Source: Armatimonadota bacterium
Lineage (GTDB): Bacteria > Armatimonadota > Fimbriimonadia > Fimbriimonadales > ATM1
NCBI GenBank assembly: GCA_021324165.1
Contig: JAJPJR010000066.1
Location: 1 to 38,039 of the forward strand
Direction: 5' to 3'
Length of the DNA stretch: 38,039 nucleotides
Below the pieces are notes generated by a model. It saw only the letters and a program-made list of their open reading frames with translations. It did not search any database and was not told the origin of the DNA. This document shows, piece by piece, positions 4,696 through 7,858 of the stretch; the stretch's first letter is position 1, and the number at the start of each line of letters is the position of its first letter. The position numbers were made by a program, and so were the translations under genes.

Positions 4696-5595
4696 CTACT
4701 TTGGCCGCAAAACCAGTACAGAATATCGCTCATTGGCCACCTGATGATGCGCCGTGCTGCCCAGCACCAAACGGTCTCGCGCGCCGTGGCCCTGCGCCGC
4801 TATGATCAAAAGTTCCGATTCGGTGGCTTCCATCACTTTGGCAATCTGCTCGATCGGCGAGCCTTGCACTTCCATCGTTGAAAACTCGCACTGCAGCGGC
4901 GCCAACTTTTCGCACAACTGCTTGTTTTCATGATGAATTGCACGTTCGAGTTTCTCTTTTTCCAGAGCAAACGTTTCGGGGGCTGCCAAAACAGTTCCCA
5001 AAGGCAGCCTCATTTCAAGATCGTAGCAGCTCAAAATGGTGAGTTTGGAAAAACCTAATGGCCCAAAACGCAGAAGTTCGTCTGCACCTTTGCGCGCATA
5101 CGCTGAATGATCCGTTGCAAAAACCGCTTTGATCGGGCCGTGTGTCTTCGGTTCCCCCCTGCCGATCAACACCGAAAGGTCGGAGTGCACGGAAAGCTCG
5201 CGCGTAACGCTTCCGAAAAACATCGCCGCTACAGCGCCTTTGTTTCCCCCTCCAACGGCGATCAAATCGGCATTCACCTGGTGCGCAAGCTGCTGAATTT
5301 CATCCGAGGCTCTTCCGTTTGCGACGTGCGCGGTGCAGCGGATCCGTTTTTCGTGGAACTCCTGCACAATCTCTTCGCCCAGAGTTTCGCAATGCTGCCG
5401 CACCGCCTCTTCGATTCTTCCAAAATCCACACCCACGGTCATTCCGAGCCCAGGCGCAACCGGCGGAGTGTAAGGATAAAACGGCTCGATAACGCCAAGG
5501 GTATGAACTTCCACATTAGGAAAACCCAGGCGCGCAATCAAGCGAATCACCGGTTCCGCCGATTCTTTCTGATTCGCTCCCAAAACGATTCGCAT
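4696..5595 (-). CDS. Tandem-domain universal stress protein
   Basis: A 299-residue protein with two UspA-type alpha/beta domains. The first domain ends with GGGNKGAVAAMFFGSV and the second with GHGARDRLVLGSTAHH, both resembling the ATP-binding G-2x-G-9x-G(S/T) loop; the first has a shortened spacing. Each is followed by a typical final strand (DLSVLIGRG and YSVLVLRPK). Start: I chose the ATG beginning MRIVLGANQK because the Usp fold starts there; an in-frame start nine codons upstream would add residues with no homologous look. No Shine-Dalgarno is visible. The gene is divergent from gpmA (52-bp gap) and 15 bp upstream of uvrB, so it is probably the first gene of the uvrB run. Stress function is inferred from the family only. 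Confidence 0.88.
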   Translation of the reverse strand: MRIVLGANQKESAEPVIRLIARLGFPNVEVHTLGVIEPFYPYTPPVAPGLGMTVGVDFGRIEEAVRQHCETLGEEIVQEFHEKRIRCTAHVANGRASDEIQQLAHQVNADLIAVGGGNKGAVAAMFFGSVTRELSVHSDLSVLIGRGEPKTHGPIKAVFATDHSAYARKGADELLRFGPLGFSKLTILSCYDLEMRLPLGTVLAAPETFALEKEKLERAIHHENKQLCEKLAPLQCEFSTMEVQGSPIEQIAKVMEATESELLIIAAQGHGARDRLVLGSTAHHQVANERYSVLVLRPK

Positions 5596-5647
5596 GATCT
5601 GTGTGCAAAGATACCCCCACACCTTAGCCGGTAAACTGCCGTCAGGT

Positions 5648-6253
5648 ATGCCGATATTGGTACTTGTTCGTCATGGAGAGTCGCTTTGGAACGCCCAAGA
5701 CCGCTTTACGGGATGGATTGACGTCCCCTTGACCGAAAAAGGAAAGGATGAGGCCCGCGCGGCCGGTGAAAAATTGAGAAGTTTTTCATTCGATGTGGCC
5801 TATACCAGCGCCCTTTCCCGCGCGCAAGAAAGCCTCGCAATCATGCTGCAAACGATGAACGTCGAAATCCCCATCATCCGCGATCAGGCTTTGAATGAAA
5901 GAATGTACGGCGAGCTGCAAGGCATGAACAAACAGAGCATGCGCGATAAATACGGAGACGCCATCGTTCACTTGTGGAGAAGAAGTTTTGACATTCCTCC
6001 GCCCGGCGGAGAAGCCCTGAAAGACACCGCTGCCCGCACTCTGCCGTTTTTCGAAAGGGCGATTATGGGAGATATCCGCGACGGGCGGAACGTTTTGGTG
6101 GTCGCACACGGAAACAGCAACCGCGCAATCATCATGCGTCTCGATAACCTTTCAAAAGAACAGATTTTGGAACTGAATCTTGAAACGGGCTTGCCTTATG
6201 TTTATGAGTTCGATTCGCAATGCCGCCTCACGACACGGCAAGTTCTGAAGTAG
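5648..6253 (+). CDS. gpmA: 2,3-bisphosphoglycerate-dependent phosphoglycerate mutase
   Basis: Interconverts 3- and 2-phosphoglycerate in glycolysis and gluconeogenesis. The 201 residues are the short bacterial form. The phosphohistidine motif LVRHGES is at residues 6-12, followed by the dPGM signature FTGWIDVPLTEKG, then LNERMYGELQGMNK, the PPGGEAL loop, and the second histidine in VVAHGNSNR. The FTGW and ERxYGxLQG signatures point to dPGM proper rather than a generic histidine phosphatase. The start MPILVLVRHGE places the strand at the expected position. A TAAACT box ends ten bases before the ATG, giving a very short leader without a Shine-Dalgarno. tRNA-Sec follows after 18 bp and is probably co-transcribed. 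Confidence 0.94.
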   Translation: MPILVLVRHGESLWNAQDRFTGWIDVPLTEKGKDEARAAGEKLRSFSFDVAYTSALSRAQESLAIMLQTMNVEIPIIRDQALNERMYGELQGMNKQSMRDKYGDAIVHLWRRSFDIPPPGGEALKDTAARTLPFFERAIMGDIRDGRNVLVVAHGNSNRAIIMRLDNLSKEQILELNLETGLPYVYEFDSQCRLTTRQVLK

Positions 6254-6271: not shown

Positions 6272-6365
6272 GGGAGCGGATGAGCGCTGGTGTGCTTTCC
6301 GGTCTTCAAAACCGGTGCGACGCTGCAAGGCGTTGGGTGGGTTCGATTCCTACACGCTCCCGCCA
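6272..6365 (+). tRNA. selC: tRNA-Sec (anticodon TCA), CCA encoded
   Basis: A 94-nt tRNA for selenocysteine. The 7-bp acceptor stem is 6272-6278 with 6355-6361; the eighth position found in other bacterial tRNA-Sec is a G-A mismatch here. The D stem is six base pairs with a four-base loop (6282-6287 with 6292-6297), a hallmark of tRNA-Sec. The anticodon stem is 6299-6303 with 6311-6315, with loop CTTCAAA and anticodon TCA at 6306-6308. A long variable arm follows (ACGC...GCGT), then a T arm with loop TTCGATT, a discriminator G and encoded CCA. It reads UGA with SelB. No selA, selB, selD or selenoprotein gene is visible in the window. Confidence 0.95.
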
Positions 6366-6370
6366 CGCTC

Positions 6371-7801
6371 TTATGATGACGGCGGAGGCACGCCGCCTCC
6401 GCTTTTGGCCGGAAACTTGGTTTTCACAATCAAAACAAGCCGCGGCGGCTGGCCGCCTTCTTTTGAAACATAAGTTTGACTTCCCGAAGGCGCCGCCAGC
6501 GCGAACGTAACGATTTTATCGCTGTCGGCATTAACCGCTGCGGCGGTTTCCGCGCAGATCGTACTCTCGCGCGATGCCATCGGGATTTGCGTGATCGTCC
6601 CACCGTCAATCGGCGGCGCGTTGTTCCATGTGATCGTGTTTTCCTGCCAGTTGCTGTTGTTCACCAAACCCAAAATCCCACCGCCGCCGTTTCCAACGCG
6701 CAGCGAAAGTTTCGCGCTCACAATCTGTCCAACGATCCCCCGCAAATCAAACTTCAGATACGTTCTTGCCGAATACGATCCTTCCGCCGTGATCAACGAA
6801 TCGGCGCTTCCAAAATTCGCATTGGGCTGATCGGATCGAACCGATGCATCGGCGGCGGCATTCACCGCTGTCAATCTGAATCCCGGCTGAGGCTTGAACC
6901 AAACTTGACAGGTTGAATCGGTTGAAAAAAACTGCGTCAACAGATCGGCAACATGGTTTTCTCCCAGCGTCGAAGGATGGGTTCCATCCGATTCGAATTC
7001 GTTGGCCATCCAGATCAGCCCGTCGCTTCGGGGCGTCAAACCGTCCGCCCACATATACGGCCCCCACAACAGAAGCGGAGCGTTGGGGGGATTTGCAAAC
7101 GACAATCGGCTGTCGCCCGATATCTGCGCTTCTACCAGCCACTTTACCGAGAAACCCGATTCATAGGCCTGAGGTTCGGGATTCAACTGCGTGTTGGCAT
7201 ATCCGCCATATATCCTGCTCGAAACATAACACAACGTCAAATTCGGAAACTTTTGTCGCAGATTGCGCACCACTTGAATCAAATCGTCGCGAAGAACTTG
7301 TGCATGTCCAGGAAAATCGTTCGGCGGATTGGCGTTTGCTTCTTTCAGCCACGCAATCTGAATCTGGTTTGCGTTCAAGCCCATCGCCGCGATGCGCTGC
7401 GCCACGATTGTCCAATAGTTTGCGCTCGGATCGGCGATGATGTGGGCGGTCTGACCACCAACCGCGCAGTTCAGAATCTCAACGCGAGCGTTGCGATATC
7501 CGTTGAGATCTTCGTTGCGTTCGAACGGCGCCGATTCCTGCGTGGTGTTCGACATGCCGATGGTAATCATCCCAATTTTGCCGGTCTGCGCGTTGGGCAT
7601 TCCGGCTGCGTCACGGGGCACGATTCCTGCCGCAAGTGCCAGCGCGGCGGACATGTGCGAGGCAGGCACAACGTTCGATCCGCCCGGATATAAGCCTCCT
7701 TGAAAACCTTTATAAAAGCCGGCGCCAAGGTCGTTCAGCGGAACGTTTCCTGTATCGGGCCGCAGCAAAATCGCAACGAAAGGCAATAAAGCGTGCACCA
7801 T
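6371..7801 (-). CDS. Secreted SGNH-hydrolase-like protein with C-terminal DNRLRE domain
   Basis: About 476 residues. A hydrophobic N-terminus (MVHALLPFVAILL) suggests export. An SGNH/GDSL-like region follows: ITIGMSNTTQ holds the candidate nucleophile serine, NCAVGGQTAH the second block, and SDGTHPS the Asp/His block. Roughly residues 310-465 match a DNRLRE (CBM96-like) beta-sandwich: ADASVRSDQPNANFGSAD, then TYLKFDLRG and TITWNNAPP. The family would be an extracellular esterase or deacetylase acting on a polysaccharide; this is inferred. Start: ATG 7801 is five bases from a strong GGAGG on the minus strand; the GTG one codon earlier would sit too close. The gene ends 5 bp from tRNA-Sec, in convergent orientation. 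Confidence 0.8.
   Translation of the reverse strand: MVHALLPFVAILLRPDTGNVPLNDLGAGFYKGFQGGLYPGGSNVVPASHMSAALALAAGIVPRDAAGMPNAQTGKIGMITIGMSNTTQESAPFERNEDLNGYRNARVEILNCAVGGQTAHIIADPSANYWTIVAQRIAAMGLNANQIQIAWLKEANANPPNDFPGHAQVLRDDLIQVVRNLRQKFPNLTLCYVSSRIYGGYANTQLNPEPQAYESGFSVKWLVEAQISGDSRLSFANPPNAPLLLWGPYMWADGLTPRSDGLIWMANEFESDGTHPSTLGENHVADLLTQFFSTDSTCQVWFKPQPGFRLTAVNAAADASVRSDQPNANFGSADSLITAEGSYSARTYLKFDLRGIVGQIVSAKLSLRVGNGGGGILGLVNNSNWQENTITWNNAPPIDGGTITQIPMASRESTICAETAAAVNADSDKIVTFALAAPSGSQTYVSKEGGQPPRLVLIVKTKFPAKSGGGVPPPSS
6382..6406 (+). terminator. Rho-independent terminator after gpmA/tRNA-Sec
   Basis: Perfect 8-bp stem GCGGAGGC/GCCTCCGC (6382-6389 with 6395-6402), a five-base loop, and a TTTT run. 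It lies 16 bases after tRNA-Sec, inside the last codons of the opposing SGNH gene, where it encodes the low-complexity GGGVPPP tail. Confidence 0.85.
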
Positions 7802-7858
7802 CACTCTCCTCCTCGTCTATCAGTTAAACGGCTCGGCGCTCGATTTGTTCAACCACGC

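Follow-up and report, generated by a model that had tools for sequence, protein, structure and literature searches.

A tRNA-Sec gene with an unpaired eighth acceptor layer and candidate redox selenoproteins in the order Fimbriimonadales

Does a tRNA-Sec gene whose acceptor stem is interrupted at its eighth position still serve the decoding of selenocysteine? The gene in question lies on the plus strand at 6272-6365 of our window, which is the whole of a 38039 bp contig (C9) from a member of the Fimbriimonadales (Armatimonadota), a little-studied lineage. An earlier note on this DNA had called it a tRNA-Sec gene, and its coordinates, strand and class proved exact: ARAGORN identifies this selC as a complete tRNA-Sec with the anticodon TCA, and the covariance-model scan that the note had proposed gave 80.2 bits for Rfam RF01852 at 6272-6365, above the gathering threshold of 47. 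On RNA folding, the tRNA-Sec cloverleaf was also the minimum-energy structure (z -2.95, with 2/200 shuffles equally good). In this fold, the 5' strand of the acceptor (6272-6278) makes seven pairs with 6355-6361, and the D arm (6282-6297) consists of a 6-bp stem (6282-6287/6292-6297) closed by a 4-nt loop. The anticodon arm (6299-6315) has a 5-bp stem and carries TCA at 6306-6308, the long variable arm (6316-6336) has 7 bp, and the T arm (6337-6353) has a 5-bp stem (6337-6341/6349-6353) with a 7-nt loop. The eighth acceptor position (7a), G6279, stands opposite A6354 at position 66, and both are unpaired. The 3' strand of the acceptor (6355-6365) ends in the discriminator G6362 and an encoded CCA (6363-6365). 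The hallmarks of a bacterial tRNA-Sec are present, namely the UCA anticodon, G73, the long variable arm and the 6-bp D stem with its 4-nt loop; those that the earlier note had read from the letters were borne out by ARAGORN and the fold, as were the seven acceptor pairs followed by a G-A mismatch. What is not matched is the fully paired textbook 8/5 form, in place of which we find 7+5 pairs and one G.A layer. The locus is a genuine tRNA-Sec gene of an already known type. RF01852 also matched a locus on C44 of this genome (51.6 bits), which we rejected as a second tRNA-Sec because it is a tRNA-Ser.

The source genome (G000; 2,326,687 bases in 83 contigs, 97.21% complete) encodes the rest of the selenocysteine machinery. 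We found selA on contig C74 (471.5 bits), selB on C12 (390 bits) and selD on C4 (369.1 bits), each above its NCBIfam cut-off and free of internal stops, and the SelB protein has the GTPase domain, the SelB beta-barrel and the SelB C-terminal winged helix. The absence of these three genes had been set beforehand as grounds for giving up the claim that the lineage uses selenocysteine; all three are present. In this genome, selA is adjoined by a gene for what by eye is an XdhC-like protein (L001 49-960). Across the order, tRNA-Sec confirmed by ARAGORN occurs in 28/61 genomes, and selA above its cut-off occurs in the same 28. Only the 28 confirmed loci were counted, because RF01852 at an E-value of 0.001 cross-matches other tRNAs in 61/61 genomes. 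The remaining 33/61 genomes lack both tRNA-Sec and selA, although some of these assemblies are incomplete, G007 being only 73% complete.

On its contig, the selC gene sits apart from this machinery. As the earlier note had observed, there are no sel genes near it: selA, selB and selD are on other contigs and, since the window is the entire contig, the stretches of about 6 kb before the tRNA and 31 kb after it are free of sel genes. Its neighbour on the same strand, a gpmA-like phosphoglycerate mutase gene (His_Phos_1; 5594-6253, +; Pfam PF00300, 154.9 bits), ends 18 nt upstream and is outside the selenocysteine system. gpmA also adjoins or lies near tRNA-Sec in the relatives G001, G002 and G003. 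We rejected a conserved gpmA-selC operon, as these are the only three of the 27 other loci with gpmA within about 1.5 kb; it was not found within that distance in the other 24 relatives, in some of which the contig ends within the locus. The region is flanked by a Usp-family gene (4696-5622) and a gene for a CBM96 protein (6371-7804), neither of which is conserved beside tRNA-Sec in the relatives. Directly after the tRNA, a hairpin seen by eye (6382-6406, +; stem 6382-6388/6396-6402) is followed by TTTT and could be the terminator of a gpmA-selC unit; it is absent from the output of our terminator scan, which requires five T.

If the tRNA is in use, genes with recoded TGA codons are expected to accompany it. 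We searched 13 genomes (G000-G012) for in-frame stops in matches to the redox families PF00578, PF00085, Rdx and CMD. Among the PF00578 matches listed, at least 24 carried an in-frame TGA, compared with one TAA and no TAG, and the TGA genes were spread over nine genomes (two in G000, one in G001, four in G002, three in G003, five in G005, four in G006, three in G007 and one each in G008 and G009), with none listed in G004 or G010-G012. PF00085 gave 16 rows with TGA and no other stop; six of these are PF00578 genes again and ten are further genes. In Rdx (SELENOW-like), 7/7 carried TGA, none of them in G000, and in CMD, 4/16 rows held TGA and none held another stop. The sel-positive G004 has its TGA gene in Rdx, and G010-G012, which are without sel genes and 96-100% complete, had no TGA in any of the four families among the matches listed. 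G007 counts against this pattern, as it has TGA redox genes yet neither selA nor tRNA-Sec was found in its 73% complete assembly. Formate dehydrogenase, which the earlier note had given as an example of a likely selenoprotein, did not hold up in this role: among the matches listed from the 13 genomes there was no TGA and two TAG, and the match in this genome (C17, 597.1 bits, under the family cut-off) has no internal stop. The TGA genes that we found encode thioredoxin-fold and related redox proteins instead.

We read 23 of the 24 listed PF00578 TGA sites in context, the unread one being in G005. TGA falls at redox positions, either in TlpA-like proteins (WUGPC, UGAC, UGC), in a Bcp-like peroxiredoxin (SGUT), or in SYRUPPF and SYTUPPF, which we take to resemble the motif of iodothyronine deiodinase. 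Two such deiodinase-resembling genes, L079 (G002:C309) and L253 (G008:C6), have TGA in UPPF and, downstream of it, a strong GG-loop hairpin. The known bacterial selenoproteins in the available part of a review (PMC13188914) include a deiodinase-like family. TGA aligned to TGA in 9/9 pairs of relatives compared, and protein conservation continues downstream of the TGA (dN 0.247 and dS 1.2 for L061/L066, several other compared pairs being saturated at synonymous sites).

Used as a stand-alone test, the bare WUGPC DNA pattern separated the genomes weakly (14/28 sel-positive and 9/33 sel-negative), which counts against selenocysteine use, and we rejected the pattern in this form. When the frame was read at 22 of the 27 sites, genuine thioredoxin context appeared in G037, G060, G045 and G006, all sel-positive, and in none of the sel-negative genomes with a site among these 22; several sites in sel-positive genomes likewise had junk context. 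The remaining five sites are genuine (G000 C39, G003 C16, G005 C6, G002 C275 and G007 C3).

Bacterial recoding of UGA also calls for a hairpin after the codon, and we scored these with a rule taken from the available part of PMC13188914, adding a requirement of our own for at least four G-C pairs and leaving out the published energy threshold. SECIS-like hairpins followed 27/43 TGA sites, compared with 1-9/43 when these genes were scored at eight shifted positions, while only 1/10 of the PF00085 members passed. Mean folding energy over positions 10-39 was -8.69 kcal/mol after the TGA, and in six windows shifted downstream it ranged from -3.42 to -6.43 (Wilcoxon p between 0.0029 and 4.4e-7). 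Because the sequences of the TGA genes are related, these hairpin and folding numbers are not independent. The signal was weaker against mononucleotide shuffles (mean z -0.99, with 20/43 below -1), a point against selenocysteine use.

The search for in-frame TGA genes with a hairpin that the earlier note had suggested thus gave many candidates in relatives and, within the families covered, two in this genome, a low number that counts against selenocysteine use here. The first (C39:4195-4551) encodes a TlpA-like protein with TGA in FWUGPC. A close relative of it occurs in G007 and another in G060, and its hairpin is weak by the rule used (three G-C of five pairs), which also counts against it. 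The second (C33:4770-5126) encodes a small AhpC/TSA protein with TGA in FCUGYD. Its homologues are distant (E 2e-7 or worse), belonging to other families of the order and none to its own, a further point against. Where it aligns to a CCINC active site, the selenocysteine position is the first cysteine of CxxC. The hairpin after this TGA is clear, with the loop GGUC, and its 10-base core, GCAGGTCTGC, lies at a distance after the TGA identical to that in E. coli fdhF.

Judged from sequence, by the sel genes, by how they co-occur within the order and by TGA sites that are candidates for recoding, 6272-6365 is almost certainly a functional selC whose product would decode UGA as selenocysteine in thioredoxin-fold and related redox proteins. 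The claim that the lineage uses selenocysteine is supported by the presence of selA, selB and selD, by the joint occurrence of tRNA-Sec and selA, and by the redox genes with in-frame TGA. For charging, conversion and decoding we follow the known bacterial pathway: seryl-tRNA synthetase (SerRS) would charge the tRNA with serine, SelA would convert it to Sec-tRNA using selenophosphate from SelD, and SelB would deliver it to UGA codons that precede a hairpin in the mRNAs of these redox proteins.

Could the G.A mismatch instead be early damage in a decaying or dead selC? One acceptor layer is indeed unpaired and this genome yielded few TGA genes, both as decay would have it. Against this, the genome has intact selA, selB and selD, and throughout the order it is this one layer that is unpaired while the rest of the domain is preserved. 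Pairs one to seven of the acceptor and the five of the T stem, 12 in all, are standard in 28/28 tRNA-Sec of the order, and the eighth layer is unpaired in 28/28 with five base combinations (G.A 14, A.A 8, C.A 4, A.G 1 and G.G 1). Other lineages agree. A pattern scan of named genomes returned at least 118 loci, of which 117 could be scored (L102 is cut by a contig end) and 116 have all seven first pairs (L172, with only 4/7 placeable, was left out). The titles of these records include Gemmatimonadota, Nitrospirae, Bacillota, Planctomycetota, Chloroflexi, Eisenbacteria and Armatimonadota, and a few are the same genomes as among the 28. One record, L090 (JADZEW010000001.1), is titled Methanoregulaceae archaeon SJ84 and has 94% of sampled 25-mers in common with G059:C1; the title looks wrong, since the contig belongs to bacteria of the order Fimbriimonadales. 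Among the matches listed, the eighth position was unpaired in 100/116 (G.A 64, C.A 19, A.A 9, G.G 5 and A.G 3) and paired in 16/116, proportions that are not frequencies for all bacteria because the pattern demanded a purine at 66 and a CGYTCCC acceptor and so excluded C66 and U66 forms. Decay is therefore a very improbable account of the mismatch. Equally improbable is an opal suppressor or other UCA-decoding tRNA (a selC-type tRNA-Cys or an allo-tRNA) that would insert serine or cysteine at UGA without a SECIS, for although such tRNA-Sec-like molecules exist (PMC7609411, available part), it sits badly with the SelA-type D arm (6 bp, 4-nt loop), the G73 discriminator, the full selA/selB/selD set with its exact selA co-occurrence, and the hairpins after TGA.

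The earlier note had described this acceptor as unlike the usual 8-bp form; the mismatch is real, and the implied rarity did not survive, since 28/28 in the order and 100/116 among the matches listed from many phyla show that it is no oddity of this lineage. An unpaired 7a.66 layer within the 13-layer acceptor/T domain is common in bacterial tRNA-Sec and no sign of decay. Bacterial tRNA-Sec with a 12-bp acceptor/T-stem have been described with Secmarker and judged functional (PMC5330540, available part), and together with the 100/116 unpaired among the matches listed, these forms mean that membership of the tRNA-Sec family does not hinge on full pairing. Our literature search on a 7a.66 mismatch returned nothing relevant, and we claim no wider absence from print. 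It is conceivable, though we consider it rather doubtful, that a large class of bacterial tRNA-Sec keeps the eighth layer yet is selected to leave it unpaired, mostly as purine.A or C.A. SerRS has been reported to prefer 12 bp (PMC7609411, available part), and if such a class exists, a domain of 12 pairs that is as long as one of 13 could ease serylation while keeping recognition by SelA and SelB, and much of bacterial diversity would be wrongly described by the 8/5 form of the textbooks. Bacterial tRNA-Sec often break the 8-bp acceptor rule, always at the same layer, which bears on how SerRS, SelA and SelB recognize this tRNA.

These findings add a selenocysteine-using order, the Fimbriimonadales of the Armatimonadota, with several candidate families of redox selenoproteins. 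Judged by title and abstract, we found no literature on selenocysteine or selenoproteins in Armatimonadota or Fimbriimonas. Compared with the bacterial thioredoxin-fold, SELENOW-like, CMD and deiodinase-like selenoproteins in the available part of PMC13188914, the candidates belong to the same families and share the UxxC, CxxU and UGC motifs and the SECIS constraints; they differ in coming from the Fimbriimonadales, the term 'Armatimonad' being absent from that review's text. With the 8/5 tRNA-Sec of E. coli and Aquifex aeolicus, the tRNA has in common the UCA anticodon, the 6-bp D stem with a 4-nt loop, the long variable arm, G73, CCA and eight residues between the T stem and G73. The difference lies in layer 7a.66, which is an unpaired G.A here and a C7a-G66 pair in E. 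coli tRNA-Sec. Like the 12-bp forms (PMC5330540, available part), it has seven paired acceptor layers and five T-stem pairs, but in those only seven residues separate the T stem from G73 and a bulge is usual, whereas here there are eight, the eighth mismatched.
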